A program made the translations under genes and the position numbers. A DNA stretch of 42,352 nucleotides from Acidimicrobiales bacterium. GTDB taxonomy: Bacteria; Actinomycetota; Acidimicrobiia; Acidimicrobiales; SZUA-35. The stretch covers positions 1 to 42,352 of the forward strand of contig JAHDFR010000015.1 in NCBI GenBank assembly GCA_020628065.1, in the 5' to 3' direction. This document shows positions 2,262 through 10,359 of the stretch, one piece after another. Numbering within the stretch: position 1 is the first letter of the stretch; each line of letters opens with the position of its first letter. Below the pieces are notes generated by a model. The model had not been told where the DNA came from. It did not search any database and saw only the letters and a list, made by a program, of their open reading frames with translations.

Positions 2262-2912
2262 CTATCCGGCGTCGGAGGTGAACTCCACCTGGCAGAAGCC
2301 GTGGTTGCAGTAGCCCATCGGGTTCTTGGCCAAATACTGCTGGTGGTAGTCCTCGGCATAGTAGAACGGGCCTGCCGGGGCGATCTCAGTGGTGATCTCA
2401 CCGAAGCCGGCCGCAGCCAGGCTGGCCTGATAGGCGTCTCGACTGGCCATAGCAGCCTTCAGCTGACCCTCGTCGCTGGCATAAATCGCCGATCGGTATT
2501 GGGTTCCGATGTCGTTGCCCTGCCCCATGTACTGAGTCGGGTCATGATTTTCCCAAAAGATCTTGAACAAGATCGACAGATCGACTTCAGCTGGATCGTA
2601 GACCACCAGCACCGCTTCGGTGTGTCCGGTGCGACCGGTGCAGGTCTCTTCGTAGGTGGGGTTTGGTGTGGTGCCTCCGGCGTAACCGACCGCCGTTGTG
2701 TAGACCCCCGATTGTTGCCAGAAGAATCGCTCCGCTCCCCAGAAACAACCCATTCCGAAGACAATCGAGTCATAGCGGTCATCAAAGGGGCCGGTCATCG
2801 GCGTGCCAAGCACGAGATGGGCGGGTGCTACTTCGATGGCGTCTGAGCGCCCGGGCAGCGTGTCTTCGGGGGCGGGGACCGTCAGAGTCCGTGGATCGAC
2901 TCGTCGAAACAT
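2262..2912 (-). CDS. msrA: Peptide-methionine (S)-S-oxide reductase MsrA
   Basis: MsrA reduces the S epimer of methionine sulfoxide in proteins back to methionine, a cytoplasmic repair step after oxidative damage. The protein is 216 residues. The family signature GCFWGAE lies at residues 55-61 with catalytic Cys56. Conserved stretches [24 protein letters not shown] and AEDYHQQYL follow in the usual order. Two further cysteines in the C-terminal YCNHGFCQ stretch (about 202 and 207) fit resolving cysteines recycled by thioredoxin. The extra N-terminal 45 residues resemble the long E. coli-type form. A GGGAG ribosome site lies 11 bases before the ATG. The gene precedes the BTAD regulator by 12 bases, suggesting one transcript. 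Confidence 0.97.
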
Positions 2913-3249: not shown

Positions 3250-6150
3250 CTACGTGTCGTCGTTCGTAGCTTCTTGACTCTGCGCTGTGCCGCCCAATAG
3301 GGCTCCAGCCTGATCCAACGCTCGCTGAGCAAAGCCTCTGAGGCGGGCCGCTTCCTCAGGGTTGGATGCCTCGGCCTGCTCCGCCCGTTCCAGGAACTCG
3401 TTGGCAGCGATGATCAGGTCGACTACCGACTCGCCTGACGGGTCATAGCCGTCGTCGGCGCTACCACCGTCGACTTCGCCGTCATCGCCGGTAGTGGCAG
3501 TGGGCACGCCACTGGACGAAACAACACCGGCCAGCGCTTCCTCCACCGTATTGGCCATCGAAATTCGTGTGCCGTTGACGGCAACAATCCGCTGGAGCTC
3601 AGGGACCGAGGTGGCGCTGTTCGACTCCACGTACACCGGCCGGATGAAGACAATGGTGTCGTCAACCAGGACAATGCTCATCTCACCGAATCGCACCCGA
3701 GCGCCGGCTTTATCCCTGATGAAGTCCGTAAGATCTTCGCTCTGACGGATCTCGGCGTGAACCAGGTCTGGAGCGTTGATCTCACCCGACGGCACGTCGA
3801 GCAGTACAAGCTCTCCGTAGTTGTCGGGATCTGAACGGGCCATCATGATGCCGGTCAGCTCGGGACGGGCGGTCGTACTACCAGAAGCTCCGCCCCGAGG
3901 CACGAAGGCCCGCTGAAGGACGTATTCGGCCTGCTCCTCGCCCGGCAGTCGCGCCATCAGGTACTGCGGATTCATCGGGATGGAAACCGTGTTGTCGCCC
4001 TCTTCGGTCTGAGCCTCGATCCGGGGCTGTGATGCGATCGACCAGGCGACGTCCTGCTGGATGAAATCGCGGGCGTCCGATACCACATAGTCGGACCACA
4101 TATCGGTTTGCACGGTAAAGAGCTCTTCCGGGTACTTGAAGTGCTGGCGAATCTCATCGGGCACATCAGCTTCGTCGGAGAACAACGACGGGAACGCTTC
4201 CTGCCATGCGGCGATGATTGGATCCTCATCGTCGACAACGAACATCTGCACCGTGCCGTCGTAAGCGTCGACGACAACCTTCACCGAGTTCCGGATGTAG
4301 TTGAAGCCGCCGGCCAGGCTTGATCCAAGCTCAACCTGGGTGGAGACGGTCTGCGAATACGGGAACTCGTTGGTGGTGGTGTAGCCGTTCATCACCCAGA
4401 AGATTCGACCTTCAGCGATAACCGGGTACGGATCTCGATCGAATCGGAGGAACGGGGCCATCGTCTGCACCCGGTCGACGACGTCACGGTTGTAAATGAC
4501 CTTCGAGCGGTCCGTGATGTTGCGGGAGATCAGCGGATCCAGCTGCCGGAATCGCAAAGCAAAGGCAATCCGCCGGCCAATCGACCCTATGCCTACGCCT
4601 GCTTCACCGTCGTAGCTGAACAACTCCGACGTTGTCCGATCCTGGAAGTCGACTTCTTCACGGTCGGCACCGACAATGGCGTAGCCACCGAAGTTCTCGC
4701 CGATGTAAACCCGAGGCTGCTCCAGCGGAACCGGGAACATCTCGTCCTGTTGAATCTCGCCCAGGCCGCTGATGAGGAAATTGAGAGCCCGGGAATCACC
4801 TGATGAGGCTGCTGTCGCCTCGTCGTATCCGGCCACCACGGCGGCTCCGTAGCCGTGGGTGAAGATGACGTGTTGGCTCTCCCACGTTGTCCCAACCTCG
4901 TTGACGTTCAAACCTCTGGCTGACAGAACAACCGGGCGAAGCTCACCGTTGATCATGTACCGATCAACATCCAGGGGGGCGGAGAACTGGTAGATCTGGC
5001 GATCGGCCTCGATGCGGGTCACCTCGTCGAAGGCCAGCAACGGGTCGACCACCGGCACGTTCTGCAATACGTCGGCGTTGGCCTCCACGTCAGCGGTGGT
5101 CAGACCGGCGCTGTAGTCCAGAGGCTCCCGCTTCAGCCGTCCCTCGTCAAGACCGTAGGCGAAGCGGGTGGCTTCGATGTTGCGGCTGACGAAATCGACT
5201 TCGCGCTGCGACTGCACCGGCTCAACGCGAAGACGCTGATACGCCAGCGGGAAAGCATTTCCGATAATGAAGTGGCTGGCCAACCAAACGGCGACCGCCA
5301 CGGCCGGAAGCCCCCACCCGGGCCGGAAAATGTTGTAGAGGAACAGCACGCCGCAGAACAACGAAATCAACGCCAGCAAATTGAACGCCGGTTCACGGAT
5401 GAGAACGTCCGTGGCCAACGCCCCGTCGAAGTTGCCCGTCTTGGAGTTGACCAACTGCAACCGATCAAACCAGTAGGCGACGGCTCGCAGGACGGCCAGT
5501 GCCGCCAGCAGCAGCGAAACGTGAATCTTGATGCCCCGGCTCACGCGGTGATCACCGATGGATGGACGGATACCACCGTTGAGGTAGTGGGCGACCAGAA
5601 CGACGATCAGCGTGAGTACCAGCGTGGCAAACAGCCAGTCGACCACAAACGACCACATGGGGAGTCGAAATACGTAGAAGCCGACGTCTCGACCGAAAAG
5701 GGCGTCGTTGACGCCGAAGTCCTGCCCGTTGCGGAACAAAACCCACGTTCGCCACTGGGCCGACGTGTTGGCACCCGCGACCAGAGCGAAGAAGGCGGCA
5801 AGAGCCAACCGGACCTTGCCGGCGTTGCGGCCGACCATGGCGTGATACCGCTCGACCAGCTCCTCCTCGGCTGACACTGGCCGTTGAGCCGGTTTGAGGC
5901 GGTCGGCCAAGAACAGATTGCCCCAGAAAATCGCGAAGAACGCCAGACCGAAGATCACTGCCAGCAGCCATTGGGTGCCGACCCTCGTCAACCAGGCCGA
6001 ACCAACGTCGAGCTGCTGGAACCAGAGCCAGTCGGTATAGACGCTGGCGATTCCGTTGGCCGAAAGGAACAGGACAAAGAAGATTCCGGCTACGACCAGC
6101 GAGATGATCCGAAGCCGCGACGTTCCCGGCCGATCACGTAAGGTGCGCAT
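3250..6150 (-). CDS. UPF0182 family membrane protein
   Basis: The protein is 966 residues, close to the usual size of UPF0182 proteins. The first 300 residues hold about seven hydrophobic segments, for example IISLVVAGIFFVLFL, WLLAVIFGLAFFAIFW and VVDWLFATLVLTLIVVLVA. They are followed by a large, probably extracytoplasmic, domain of about 570 residues with family-like stretches such as NYIRNSVKVVVDAYDG and PYPVIAEGRIFWVMNGYT. The last 90 residues are acidic and Ala/Glu-rich, probably a flexible tail with a short helix. The biochemical function of the family is unknown. A TACGAT box lies 8 bases before the ATG, so the mRNA may be leaderless. In mycobacteria a UPF0182 gene lies beside a PDZ-Lon gene, and both are present here. 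Confidence 0.93.
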   Translation of the reverse strand: MRTLRDRPGTSRLRIISLVVAGIFFVLFLSANGIASVYTDWLWFQQLDVGSAWLTRVGTQWLLAVIFGLAFFAIFWGNLFLADRLKPAQRPVSAEEELVERYHAMVGRNAGKVRLALAAFFALVAGANTSAQWRTWVLFRNGQDFGVNDALFGRDVGFYVFRLPMWSFVVDWLFATLVLTLIVVLVAHYLNGGIRPSIGDHRVSRGIKIHVSLLLAALAVLRAVAYWFDRLQLVNSKTGNFDGALATDVLIREPAFNLLALISLFCGVLFLYNIFRPGWGLPAVAVAVWLASHFIIGNAFPLAYQRLRVEPVQSQREVDFVSRNIEATRFAYGLDEGRLKREPLDYSAGLTTADVEANADVLQNVPVVDPLLAFDEVTRIEADRQIYQFSAPLDVDRYMINGELRPVVLSARGLNVNEVGTTWESQHVIFTHGYGAAVVAGYDEATAASSGDSRALNFLISGLGEIQQDEMFPVPLEQPRVYIGENFGGYAIVGADREEVDFQDRTTSELFSYDGEAGVGIGSIGRRIAFALRFRQLDPLISRNITDRSKVIYNRDVVDRVQTMAPFLRFDRDPYPVIAEGRIFWVMNGYTTTNEFPYSQTVSTQVELGSSLAGGFNYIRNSVKVVVDAYDGTVQMFVVDDEDPIIAAWQEAFPSLFSDEADVPDEIRQHFKYPEELFTVQTDMWSDYVVSDARDFIQQDVAWSIASQPRIEAQTEEGDNTVSIPMNPQYLMARLPGEEQAEYVLQRAFVPRGGASGSTTARPELTGIMMARSDPDNYGELVLLDVPSGEINAPDLVHAEIRQSEDLTDFIRDKAGARVRFGEMSIVLVDDTIVFIRPVYVESNSATSVPELQRIVAVNGTRISMANTVEEALAGVVSSSGVPTATTGDDGEVDGGSADDGYDPSGESVVDLIIAANEFLERAEQAEASNPEEAARLRGFAQRALDQAGALLGGTAQSQEATNDDT

Positions 6151-6289: not shown

Positions 6290-6325
6290 GCCTAGGACGT
6301 GCGCCTACCAGCGCAGGTCCTAGGC
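6290..6325 (-). terminator. Long hairpin over the stop codon of the DivIVA-like gene
   Basis: Two 15-base arms, GCCTAGGACGTGCGC and GCGCAGGTCCTAGGC, pair with a single mismatch around a 6-base loop. The right arm covers the TAG stop codon (6322-6320) of the DivIVA-like gene. No T run follows on the minus strand. It may end transcription by a U-tract-independent route or protect the mRNA 3' end; either role is inference. Confidence 0.5.
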
Positions 6326-8785
6326 GGAAATGACCAGGCAGCGACAGCTTGGCACCGCCAGTGGACGAGCGTGTCCGCTGGGGAAGGCATCGCCCTTCAC
6401 CAAGCCTTGGCGGTCGGCGTTGATTTCACACGCCGGATCCGGATCGAAACGGGGATCCAGCAACCAGGAAACTTCCGCTCCATCGCCGATGGCGGCGAAC
6501 ACGCCTATGGCGAACGCTTCGTACATCGAGTCTTCAACCAGATCTATCAGGCTGCCGTTGCGAAAGTCCCGGTAGACCGACCGGATGGGGTCCAAAATGG
6601 CCTCCCGGTCATCGGTTTCGTCCTCTTCGATCAGCTGAATCACCGGGATGCGGAGCCGATCAACGATGTAGCGGGCAACAGCTTGCTCAAGACGTTCGAG
6701 CGGCTCGGGTGTATCGGGAACCTTCCCGCCGACACGAGCTCCTGCCAAACCAACCGGCAAGAGACCCCGATGCACGGGAACCAGATACCGCTCGAGTTGC
6801 TGGTTGAGCGGAGCCAGCTCATCAACCTTCAGCCGGCCCTTGCCTCCTCGGATCCGGTCGAGGACGTCACTCTGATCATCGTTGACCACCCTGCGCATGG
6901 CCCGCTGGGTGTCATCCAGCCCCTTGAGCGCCTTGTCTCTGGCGATGAGCGGCGAAGCCAATTTGCCTCGGAAGTCGGAACCTTCGATTCGGAGATCGCC
7001 TCGGTTGACGTCGTGATCCGAGCCACGAACCGCAGTTCGACTCCGCGATTCGACGGTGGTGATGATATTGGACAGCTCCTGTTCGGGCTCTTTGCGACGC
7101 TGCTCAGCGGCCAGGTCGATATCGGCCTCGGACAGTTCGATAGTGGTGAAACCTTCGATCAAGCCGGTGGCGATGCGCTGTTTCTCGGCATCGGCCTCGA
7201 CGGTTGTGTCGGTTTCCTCAGCCTCCGCCTCGGTCCCGGCAGAGTCGCCGGGTACAGAATCACCGTCTACAGAATCACCGTCTACAGCGTCAACGTGCTC
7301 AGGAGCACCGTCGGGAGCTTCCACGTCGGCGGTATTGGGCTTGCTTTCGGTCCCAGTCTCCTGGGCGGGGCCATCGGTTTCAGGCACCGAGTCGTCCGTG
7401 TGGATGTCTGACTCCACAACGTCCTGCGGCCGTTCGGCCAACGCTGTTGCCGTGGCTGTCTGGGCACTGGCCGCGGTGTCATCGGCGGCTGGTCGGGTAC
7501 CGCCACCCGGCTGGCCCTTGGCCTTGCTCTTGGGCGACTTGGCTCCGGTCGTCTTGGACCGGTTGGTCCGCTTTTTGCTCGCTCTCGAAGTCCCTTGGTT
7601 ACTCTTTGAGCCTTCAGCCGAGCGATCGGCCCGGTGGGATGCGTCGTCACCGGTCGATTCCGAGTCCGTCAGATCAATGACGGTCTGCTCGGCGACGGCA
7701 TTCGTGTCAGCCGATGCCTCGCCGGCCTCTGTGTTGTTTGTGCTGTCTGTCTTGCCTGTTGTCGGGGCCTCGGCATTGTCTCCAGCCTTGCCGACGATGG
7801 CGTCAGAATCTTCGGGCGGGAGGCCCAGGCGTGAGTCGAGTTCGGCCGCCAATTTGGCTACCTCGTCATCGACGCTGGCGTCGAGGCCGGCGACATCCGG
7901 GGCATCGGGGTGACCTGTCTTCCGGCCTTCCGGCCTTGTTGTGATCTCCTCGAGACGCTCGGACATTTCGTCAATCTCGGATCGGGCGACCCGCAGTGCC
8001 ATGGCCAACCGATCACGAGTGGCCGCCATCTCTTCCAGATCGGTCTGTGACTTTGTCCGCTCGACAACCAGTTCGGAAAGGATCTGCTGCCGGATCGCTT
8101 CAGCGTCAGCCACGATTTGTTCGGCTCTTGACTGGGCTTCCCGTTCCGACTCCTCGGCCGAGAACTCGGCGTCGGAAAGGATTTTGCTCGACTCTTCGAG
8201 CACCATTTGCCGATGTTCATCGGCGTCGTCTCGAACCTGCTGGGCCGACTCCTCGGCCTCGGCCGTGACCCGGGCAACCAGATCCTCAACTTCGGCCTGC
8301 TTGTCTGTCAGGTAGGTGCGGGCCTCTTTGCGAGCAGCGCTCAGCTCCTCTTCAGCCGACTCCAGCTTCTCGGCGGCGTCGGCCTCGGAGCGTTTGATGA
8401 TGTCGGCGGCCGCTGATCTGGCCGATTCAAGCACCCGTGCCGTTTCCTGTCCGAGCAGCTCAATGGCCCGGTGCTCGTCAATCTCGCCCGGGTCGCTCGG
8501 CGTTTCAACGTCTTCACCGGAGACGGTCCGCTGGACCGATTCAAGCTCTAGCTCCCTCAGCTCCCGACGAAGCGTCTCGTTTTCCTCTTCGAGTTCCTCG
8601 ATGCGATCCTGCGTCGTTGTCCTGGCCAGGATGGCCAGGCCATCGTCTCCGGTCTCTTCCAGTATGGTCGCCAGACGGCTCAAGTATGAGCGGACGGCAT
8701 CTGGGTCAAAGCCCCGGAAGGCTGTAGGAAATTCGGCGGAAGCAATCTTCTTCGGAGCGAACTCGTCGTCACTCATCGTTGCCAT
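6320..8785 (-). CDS. DivIVA-domain coiled-coil protein with a C-terminal phage Mu F-like motif
   Basis: The protein is 821 residues from the ATG at 8785 (a second ATG lies at 8776). The N-terminus (FPTAFRGFDPDAVRSYLSRL) matches the DivIVA/Wag31 membrane-binding head used at cell poles and septa. Long coiled coils follow at about 40-75 and 100-300. Residues about 310-560 are acidic and low-complexity with one basic patch (KKRTNRSKTTGAKSPKSKAK) and a VDGDS repeat. The last 230 residues are folded-looking and end with DPACEIN, then FPSGHARPLAVPSCRCLVI. That spacing resembles the C-terminus of Mu gpF/SPP1 gp7 head-morphogenesis domains (CxxC/N, GH, P, CRC). Cys786, Cys814 and Cys816 are the only cysteines and with His805 could bind a metal. 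A role in polar growth or division is inferred from the head domain; the role of the tail is unknown. Confidence 0.85.
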   Translation of the reverse strand: MATMSDDEFAPKKIASAEFPTAFRGFDPDAVRSYLSRLATILEETGDDGLAILARTTTQDRIEELEEENETLRRELRELELESVQRTVSGEDVETPSDPGEIDEHRAIELLGQETARVLESARSAAADIIKRSEADAAEKLESAEEELSAARKEARTYLTDKQAEVEDLVARVTAEAEESAQQVRDDADEHRQMVLEESSKILSDAEFSAEESEREAQSRAEQIVADAEAIRQQILSELVVERTKSQTDLEEMAATRDRLAMALRVARSEIDEMSERLEEITTRPEGRKTGHPDAPDVAGLDASVDDEVAKLAAELDSRLGLPPEDSDAIVGKAGDNAEAPTTGKTDSTNNTEAGEASADTNAVAEQTVIDLTDSESTGDDASHRADRSAEGSKSNQGTSRASKKRTNRSKTTGAKSPKSKAKGQPGGGTRPAADDTAASAQTATATALAERPQDVVESDIHTDDSVPETDGPAQETGTESKPNTADVEAPDGAPEHVDAVDGDSVDGDSVPGDSAGTEAEAEETDTTVEADAEKQRIATGLIEGFTTIELSEADIDLAAEQRRKEPEQELSNIITTVESRSRTAVRGSDHDVNRGDLRIEGSDFRGKLASPLIARDKALKGLDDTQRAMRRVVNDDQSDVLDRIRGGKGRLKVDELAPLNQQLERYLVPVHRGLLPVGLAGARVGGKVPDTPEPLERLEQAVARYIVDRLRIPVIQLIEEDETDDREAILDPIRSVYRDFRNGSLIDLVEDSMYEAFAIGVFAAIGDGAEVSWLLDPRFDPDPACEINADRQGLVKGDAFPSGHARPLAVPSCRCLVISA
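7253..7287 (-). repeat. 15-bp tandem repeat inside the DivIVA-like gene
   Basis: The 15-bp unit TACAGAATCACCGTC occurs twice head to tail (7253-7267, 7268-7282), followed by a degenerate third start. On the coding strand it encodes the repeated pentapeptide VDGDS in the acidic linker. In-frame expansion or contraction would only change linker length. Confidence 0.75.
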
Positions 8786-8888: not shown

Positions 8889-10160
8889 CTACTGACCGTC
8901 CCGGCCGTCTTCCTGCACCGAGGCGGCGAACTCGTCAACTGCTCCAACATTGCCACCGATTTCCTCGAGAGCAATCAGTGCGTCTTCGATGGTTGCCACC
9001 GGCACGATCTTCAACTTGTCCCCGGCCCGGTCCTCCAGATCCTCCAGAGAAATGGACCCGAGATCGGCCGGCACCAGAAATACGTCGGCTCCCATATCAC
9101 GGACGGCCGCCGTCTTTTGCAGGACGCCACCGACCGAGCCCACGTTGCCGATGACATCGATGGTGCCGGTCACCGCCACATCGGCGCCGCCGGTCAGTTC
9201 GCCTTCGGTCAGCTGATCAAGAACGGCAAGGGTAAAGGCCAACCCGGCGGACGGGCCGCCCACCGAACCACTGTCGATTTCGACGTTGAATTCGAAGCCT
9301 TCGTTGAACAGCAAATTGTCAACCGGCGTTATACCAATGAAGCTTCCGCCCGGTATCTCGGGGTGTTCGCCCAAGACCAGGGAAACGACCTCCGCCTGCT
9401 CCTCGCCGTGTCGACGAACTTCCATTTCGATCTCGTCGCCAGGTGCGTAGCCGGAGAGCACTTCCCGCAGAGTGTTTGTGCTTGGAATCCCAACGCCGTC
9501 AATGGCAACAATGAGGTCCTGGGGCATCAACAGCCCGTCGGCCGGGTCGCCTTCGGTGGTGTTGACCACGATCACCGCGTCGGACTGCACGGCGTCGTAA
9601 CCCAGCTTCTCAAGGGCCACCGCAACGGCGACCTCCTTGGACTGGTCCATAAACTCGAGGTTCTGGCTTCTGTTCTCTTCTGGTGTCCGACCGTTGAGAA
9701 TCAGCTCCTCGGGAACGACTTCGACGTCACGGTCGGCCCGTAACCACAACCACTCCCAAAAGTTCGGCCGCTGCCGCATCTGAACGGTGGTGAAGAGGAA
9801 CGTTCCATCACTGGGGAACTCGTCAATGCCTTCAACCGCCAAGAGCGGTTCGGTGTCACGAGCCGAGCCCGGCATCAAACCGATGTAGGGAACTTTGACG
9901 AACGCGCCCACGGCCACGCCGACAGCCAACAGAGCGACCAGCAGTACCGCCATGTTTCTGACCATGCGTCGAACCCGGCTGCTGTACACATCGGCGGCGC
10001 CGGACGAATCGGACACATGGTCATACACCTCGGTCATGTTGTCTGCCGGGTTGCCTTCAGCCGGATTTTCCATCGCCGTATCGCCTCCGGTACCGCCAAC
10101 TTCAGGTGCTGCGTGACCTGGCTGGTCGTCACCGCGTACACTGGGAGAAGCGTCGTCCAT
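8889..10160 (-). CDS. Membrane-anchored PDZ-Lon (S16) protease, YlbL/Rv3194c type
   Basis: The protein is 423 residues from the ATG at 10160, chosen because AGGAG lies 4 bases upstream; an earlier start at 10190 is less likely. A charged cytoplasmic N-terminus of about 65 residues precedes one membrane segment (AVLLVALLAVGVAVGAFV). A PDZ domain (about 195-270, with DGLLMPQDLIVAIDG) and a Lon-type proteolytic domain follow. The catalytic dyad is visible: Ser304 in GGPSAG and Lys349 in GGVLQKTAAV. There is no ATPase domain, as usual for this family, so substrates must already be unfolded or extracytoplasmic. In mycobacteria the homologue lies next to UPF0182; here the DivIVA-like gene sits between them. 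The substrate is unknown. Confidence 0.93.
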   Translation of the reverse strand: MDDASPSVRGDDQPGHAAPEVGGTGGDTAMENPAEGNPADNMTEVYDHVSDSSGAADVYSSRVRRMVRNMAVLLVALLAVGVAVGAFVKVPYIGLMPGSARDTEPLLAVEGIDEFPSDGTFLFTTVQMRQRPNFWEWLWLRADRDVEVVPEELILNGRTPEENRSQNLEFMDQSKEVAVAVALEKLGYDAVQSDAVIVVNTTEGDPADGLLMPQDLIVAIDGVGIPSTNTLREVLSGYAPGDEIEMEVRRHGEEQAEVVSLVLGEHPEIPGGSFIGITPVDNLLFNEGFEFNVEIDSGSVGGPSAGLAFTLAVLDQLTEGELTGGADVAVTGTIDVIGNVGSVGGVLQKTAAVRDMGADVFLVPADLGSISLEDLEDRAGDKLKIVPVATIEDALIALEEIGGNVGAVDEFAASVQEDGRDGQ

Positions 10161-10359
10161 CGTTCTCCTATCGGACACTATGACGACCAAACTACAGCGG
10201 AGACCTAAACCTCCCGAAAAAACCCACGCAAAATGGCGACAAATGATCCTTTTGTGTGGCCCGCAACCGCCGATCGGTCAAACGAACGACCGCCACGGGT
10301 CCCCGGCGGAACTCTTTCGAACACTCACCCAAACCGATGCATCGACCAGGTACGTCCAC

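Follow-up and report, generated by a model that had tools for sequence, protein, structure and literature searches.

Organization of the locus

The window analyzed here, a stretch of 42,352 nucleotides from an Acidimicrobiales genome, carries on its minus strand a gene encoding a protein with an N-terminal DivIVA head and a C-terminal domain that appears to derive from phage MuF proteins. The features of this DivIVA-MuF gene and of its neighbours are summarized in Table 1. The reading frame is uninterrupted and comprises 821 residues plus the stop codon, and the gene is the single match of its kind in its own genome. No Rfam family was detected within the window at gathering thresholds.

Table 1. 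Features of the DivIVA-MuF locus (positions refer to the window)
Feature	Position	Strand	Basis or detail
UPF0182 membrane protein gene, next downstream	3250..6150	-	PF03699, 749 bits
DivIVA-MuF gene, 821 aa	6320..8785	-	ATG at 8785, stop 6320-6322; stop-free translation
MuF-derived C-terminal domain (putative), residues 610-821	6323..6958	-	hhalign, AlphaFold, Foldseek against BFVD
Cys tail, residues 783-816: D783, C786, FPSGH805, V811, C814, R, C816	6338..6439	-	
Acidic low-complexity linker, approx. residues 291-609	6959..7915	-	composition
Charged region, probably coiled coil, approx. residues 61-290	7916..8605	-	composition; sub-cut-off Wag31 match; approximate boundaries
DivIVA head, residues 11-40, RGFDPDAV motif	8666..8755	-	TIGR03544, 25.3 bits
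PDZ and Lon-type protease gene, next upstream	8889..10190	-	PF13180 and PF05362 (Lon_C)

The coiled-coil and disorder assignments were made from composition, predictor-free: residues 61-290 are highly charged, while P, G, S, T, Q and N together make up 41% of residues 291-545. The C-terminal domain consists of long helices followed by the cysteine tail. This layout agrees with the original prediction, which was made from the sequence and had proposed a DivIVA-like head (now above the family cut-off), long coiled coils and a disordered linker (compatible with the composition), and a separate C-terminal domain (folded, according to AlphaFold). The three cysteines to which that prediction had drawn attention, C786, C814 and C816, are the only ones in the protein, H805 lies where it had been placed, and the UPF0182 and PDZ/Lon_C genes adjoin the gene as described. 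A Lys/Arg-rich stretch, SKKRTNRSKTTGAKSPKSKAKG, occupies residues 403-424 (window 7514-7579, minus strand) within the acidic linker of the window copy.

The DivIVA head and its paralogues

The head was recognized by the NCBIfam model TIGR03544 (DivI1A domain; cut-off 22 bits). The Pfam DivIVA model gave 20.7 bits against a cut-off of 28, or 28.2 bits with neighbouring in-frame matches summed, and the Wag31 model matched residues 61-253 far under its own cut-off. TIGR03544 was found (E <= 0.1) in 91 of 101 homologous N-termini, a set drawn from 127 uncut frames, of which 26 were dropped by hand to keep it small. The protein shows the organization by which DivIVA-like proteins are defined, i.e. 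an N-terminal DivIVA domain with an RG[YF]D motif followed by a coiled coil (the latter judged from composition). With a single TIGR03544 stretch it falls outside the PolyDIV proteins, which have at least two DivIVA-like domains.

Two further DivIVA-headed proteins are encoded in the same genome: a separate DivIVA located beside murB, ftsQ, ftsZ and sepF, and a frame of 611 residues adjacent to genes for a LysR regulator and a thiolase (L261:4572-6407, minus strand). The DivIVA-MuF protein is therefore a third paralogue. The ftsZ-linked DivIVA differs from it in lacking a MuF domain (PF04233 has no match in the genome, and the domain profile A1, described below, finds one place).

Relationship of the C-terminal domain to phage MuF proteins

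Scans against Pfam, NCBIfam and PHROGs assigned the C-terminal domain of the window copy to no MuF or phage head family, and PF04233 (Phage_Mu_F) was absent from the matches of the whole protein at E <= 1. Since the family libraries did not recognize this copy, its relatives were used, and 30 C-terminal domains (the window copy being member 1) were combined into profile A1. The phage portal family PHROG 2662 matched 27 of these 30 members (E <= 1, best 6.9e-14), and PF04233 matched 17 of them weakly (E <= 1, best 1.5e-4). In four members scanned singly, PHROG 2662 aligned with residues 57-212 of 215, 11-219 of 221, 19-218 of 221 and 47-220 of 222, and the matched stretch comprised 178-224 positions near the C-terminal end of the 717-position profile. 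Three of these same four reached 13.9-16.9 bits against PF04233 (cut-off 29.6), and the fourth had no match. The likeness to PF04233 that had been anticipated for the window protein thus failed for this copy itself but holds, weakly, among its relatives.

A tblastn search with one relative as the query detected the portal protein of a Brevundimonas phage (E 7e-7) and a Methanoculleus virus gene located after a presumed portal gene (E 2e-3; these two virus genes are annotated as hypothetical), while a plasmid search with one relative gave no match. In IMG/VR, profile A1 retrieved three records with one and the same phage-like protein, matched at its tail end. A profile-profile comparison by hhalign, in which A1 was set against nine MuF and portal-MuF proteins of phages, gave an E-value of 1.9e-16 (probability 98.7, 111 columns), against 0.14 for a negative control composed of DivIVA N-termini. 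Nine of 11 phage proteins passed the inclusion threshold in an hmmsearch with A1, and the lactococcal and enterococcal phage minor head proteins remained under it. The alignment with the phage proteins stays in register across a helix with an A..G pattern and a tryptophan preceding the tail. After removal of the cysteine tail, the helix part alone gave an hhalign E-value of 0.0049 (probability 7%), and PHROG 2662 was still the top family, with five of the 30 members at E <= 0.1 (best 1.2e-5). The signal without the tail points, weakly, in the same direction.

AlphaFold produced a confident model of the C-terminal 212 residues of the window copy (pLDDT 94.8, pTM 0.90) and of the domain of a canonical relative (pLDDT 96.2). 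When both were compared with BFVD by Foldseek, a phage portal protein ranked first in each case. At E <= 0.001 there were 23 matches for the window domain, the named ones being head, capsid or portal proteins apart from one Zeta toxin domain protein and one uncharacterized protein, and 28 for the canonical relative, where every named match was a head, capsid or portal protein. Many BFVD matches are nameless, and this comparison sets predicted structures against predicted structures. In the PDB, the sequence profile found weak matches only (ribosomal uS19 and ZorA), Foldseek gave none at E <= 0.001, and the VIA-align results of the two models were mostly helical bundles and stalks; the missing PDB relative is uninformative. 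Together, the PHROG 2662 matches, the hhalign result and the head and portal proteins leading the Foldseek matches support the proposed relationship of the domain to MuF/SPP1 gp7-type proteins, at the level of sequence and model comparison.

The cysteine tail

Residue conservation was counted over 83 distinct domains taken from 90 loci, a non-random set of close relatives supplemented with chosen weak and outside ones. Among the domains with a tail, C814 is conserved in 77/77, C816 in 75/77 and C786 in 71/77, and this near-invariance indicates that the tail is no chance feature. A further cysteine, at position 783, is kept in 65/76 domains and a histidine at position 811 in 62/77. The conserved pattern is therefore C..C, PPxH and CxC, with a longer C..C spacing outside the class. 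The C..C and CRC elements are present in most relatives and incomplete in the window copy and in some phage members. At the C783 and H811 positions the window copy has D and V, respectively; its family has lost both motif residues and is degenerate in the tail motif, which makes the window copy a poor representative of it. The original prediction had offered His805 as a possible metal ligand, a role that conservation does not support, as this residue is kept in only 32/76 domains. We suppose that the tail has a structural role as a knuckle, which probably holds zinc in those members that retain four Cys or CCHC ligands; the L021 domain is one with four cysteines.

The tail is missing in 6/83 domains. 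In five of them (L125, L126, L139, L140 and L141) the reading frame ends past the last helix, and no tail was seen in other nearby frames; except in L126, the UPF0182 frame begins within about 50 bases. The sixth (L142) looks like a broken frame.

A conserved motif in the linker

In most relatives from the class that do not belong to the window's family (e.g. L021 and L031), the linker contains the motif V[DE]xLFARLR within otherwise poorly conserved sequence. A hexamer pattern centred on LFARLR occurred in 110 of 126 distinct members of the class other than those of the window's family, in none of four members of that family and in none of 12 frames from outside the class (frames under 450 residues were excluded), compared with one of 2,840 shuffled linkers. 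The pattern was picked once the sequences had been seen, so these counts describe the motif and are no independent test of it. The motif, apparently undescribed, looks like a docking peptide.

Gene neighbourhood

The surroundings of the gene were compared in 140 loci (L031-L110, L125-L144 and L165-L204), chosen as carriers of the domain and including some near-duplicates. In 139 of them UPF0182 is found downstream of the gene in the same orientation, and in the remaining one (L064) the sequence ends 178 bases past the gene. For 33 of the 139, the stop-to-stop frame of UPF0182 begins inside the end of the gene and was labelled as upstream by the script, and the order was taken from the offsets. 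The PDZ-Lon gene is located upstream on the same strand in 120 loci, in 101 of which less than 400 bases separate the two frames; its adjacency is not universal and is least so outside the class. Strand and spacing suggest an operon with UPF0182 and PDZ-Lon. A peptide methionine sulfoxide reductase gene is present at window positions 2262-2912 (minus strand), and also downstream of UPF0182 in relatives of the same family (L190-L193).

No portal, terminase or capsid genes were found beside the DivIVA-MuF gene, whose neighbours are UPF0182 and PDZ-Lon, and the constancy of these neighbours (139/140 and 120/140) excludes a prophage remnant. The view that a phage-derived domain had been adopted by a chromosomal gene is borne out by these bacterial surroundings.

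We take the upstream protease gene to be YlbL-like, and the YlbL protease of Bacillus subtilis is presumably of the same PDZ-Lon kind. In B. subtilis, YlbL helps cells to recover from a division checkpoint, and deletion of both YlbL and CtpA leads to accumulation of the checkpoint inhibitor YneA (PMC6051672). The neighbouring genes thus suggest a connection with the envelope or with division. Together with the DivIVA head, they are the ground on which the polar or septal position and the envelope-growth role of the original prediction may be proposed.

Distribution, gain and loss

A search with the whole protein gave matches in 114 of 148 genomes of the order; among the matches listed, most covered the C-terminal domain and some just the head and coil. 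Profile A1 matched in 191 of 296 genomes of the class and in 54 of 396 genomes of the phylum, 36 inside the class and 18 outside it. These counts are lower bounds, as one genome (G168) was scored as a miss although its locus L242 carries the domain. Outside the class, a second profile (A7) matched in 8/24 genomes of the class of G477 and in 16/66 of the class of G521. The same fusion, which the original prediction had suggested seeking in other Acidimicrobiia, is accordingly widespread there, and most of the N-termini examined carry the TIGR03544 head. The DivIVA-MuF gene is common in the class of the window and patchy outside it.

In a contig search, the titles of the best 80 of 235 relatives were all from Actinomycetota (Acidimicrobiia, Acidimicrobiales, Ilumatobacter etc., or Actinobacteria); these 80 had been chosen by their tail pattern and were therefore left out of the residue counts. 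One relative (L075) lies in the complete genome of Aquihabitans sp. G128. Four loci with the gene (L048, L052, L078 and L096) have Bifidobacterium breve in their titles. The last 48 residues of L052 equal those of L053, from an uncultured Acidimicrobiaceae, bar one, so these titles look wrong.

Of 26 genomes picked as missed by A1, UPF0182 was present in 21, and 20 loci from 19 of these 21 were read upstream of it. In six loci (L240, L241, L246, L247, L252 and L253) UPF0182 comes straight after PDZ-Lon, and in two (L248 and L249) the DivIVA-headed gene has no MuF domain. Genome G158 has two copies of a DivIVA-headed gene followed by UPF0182 (L243 and L244), each with a partial helical domain and no cysteine tail, while the gene at L242 has both the helical domain and the tail. 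The remaining loci contain other frames in the slot, or the slot is unclear. As some class members lack the MuF domain or the slot gene and others lack the tail, the module seems to be dispensable in places.

In an unrooted FastTree phylogeny of 144 host and seven phage rows (two of the latter identical), the host domains were split from the phage sequences with a support of 0.838. This split is compatible with a single capture, on few phage sequences.

Comparison with known systems

Among the closest known systems are the portal-MuF fusion proteins of tailed phages (PHROG 2662; portal of Brevundimonas phage Strzyga), which share with the DivIVA-MuF proteins a C-terminal helical domain, ending in C..C..FPSGH..P.AHPECRC; the hmmsearch alignment with A1 extends over profile positions 93-212. 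In such portal-MuF fusions the domain is carried by the portal, beside a terminase gene, whereas here a DivIVA head bears it and the surrounding genes are chromosomal. The SPP1 gp7 and Mu gpF proteins (PF04233) appear to be remote members of the same family, linked to the window protein through its relatives; they differ in being virion components encoded by head-module genes, and the window protein does not reach PF04233. According to PMC6316719, SPP1 gp7 is a portal-binding protein without which assembly still proceeds, although only about 25% of the virions formed in its absence are infectious.

The N-terminal part resembles Wag31/DivIVA of Actinomycetota, with a DivIVA head and a charged coiled-coil region. 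PolyDIV proteins are likewise DivIVA-like proteins of Actinomycetota, and one cluster has an extra folded domain, but they contain several DivIVA-like domains and the extra domain is a Ser/Thr kinase, instead of one DivIVA-like domain and MuF; this kinase cluster is termed unique by the authors of PMC9858780. As far as their accessible portions extend, neither that survey of DivIVA-like proteins nor the muf survey PMC5576092 describes the DivIVA-MuF architecture. Searches of the open-access literature found no description of DivIVA combined with MuF, and nothing for UPF0182 with DivIVA, for Acidimicrobiia with DivIVA, or for DivIVA with the terms domesticated, prophage or capsid. The words DivIVA and minor capsid occurred once each in PMC10884400 and PMC9430571, and open-access titles and abstract openings yielded no functional study of UPF0182. 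The parts are thus known and the combination is new; being kept across much of the class, it is beyond an accident of one genome.

Possible function and origin

Sequence and model comparisons support the identification of the protein as a third DivIVA paralogue whose C-terminal domain descends from a tailed-phage MuF or portal-MuF head protein, and over much of the class the gene is kept in the chromosome between the PDZ-Lon protease gene and UPF0182. We consider it probable that this domesticated phage-head module acts as part of a membrane-anchored adaptor. In known DivIVA proteins the head seeks concave membrane. The head of the present protein would similarly dock as an oligomer at the septum or pole, the coiled coil would stiffen and multimerize the protein, and the long flexible linker would present the MuF module together with the putative docking peptide (which most class relatives have and the window copy lacks). 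The module may bind a protein partner, in the manner of SPP1 gp7 on the portal ring, and the partner would thereby be concentrated at the growing or dividing membrane. UPF0182 and PDZ-Lon, or an assembly served by both, are the likeliest partners, though this is a guess; an adaptor for the operon's own membrane proteins is favoured by the hints of the neighbours at envelope or division. A bolder form of this proposal, possible but doubtful, is that a single early capture, in this part of the phylum, brought in a portal-binding module of a tailed phage. The module would have become the partner-holding end of a class-wide DivIVA organizer, which would assemble UPF0182 and PDZ-Lon at the septum or pole with V[DE]xLFARLR serving as a second docking site, and it would still recognize ring-shaped oligomers.

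The same origin would also allow the module to bind DNA and tether the chromosome to the pole or septum. The paper cited for SPP1 gp7 in the reference list of PMC6316719 is titled as concerning a DNA-binding protein, helix 1 of the domain is basic on average (+2.5), and the linker of the window copy has its Lys-rich stretch; nevertheless, the domain as a whole is acidic, with a mean net charge of -7.4 in 163 sequences, which favours a protein partner and makes a DNA tether unlikely. We regard as distinctly improbable a role in defence, in which the domain would be a phage-assembly decoy that traps, at the membrane, the portals or head proteins of phages entering the cell. Defence genes usually show a mobile pattern, unlike this gene with its constant pair of neighbours, and in the window copy and two relatives PADLOC defence models did not match the domain; the one signal was from LmuB, which weakly matched the coiled coil (E 0.017). 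The idea draws on the binding of the portal by SPP1 gp7 (PMC6316719) and on a recorded defence that blocks virion assembly (PMC10884400).

Two doubts concern the origin itself, and we give little credence to either. Were the likeness confined to the cysteine knuckle and the helical part unrelated, the poor hhalign score of the helix part alone would be explained; yet the portal family ranks first even without the tail, the Foldseek matches span the whole domain, and the alignment keeps its register across both the A..G helix and the tryptophan ahead of the tail. Transfer in the opposite direction, from bacteria to phages, is accommodated by an unrooted tree with so few phage rows, but it fits poorly with PMC5576092, which reports MuF genes from about 35% of tailed phages and an association with prophages or remnants of them for 96% of the 901 chromosomal muf genes surveyed, and with a DivIVA fusion seen just in part of one phylum, the phylum that the profile searches covered.

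Under the favoured reading as an adaptor, a phage-head module resides inside a long-kept bacterial gene with constant neighbours. The fusion offers a handle on UPF0182 and allows binding by the MuF fold to be tested outside the virion. It suggests that a viral part has been put to work in the bacterial cell, where the DivIVA head would probably anchor it at the cell pole or division site.
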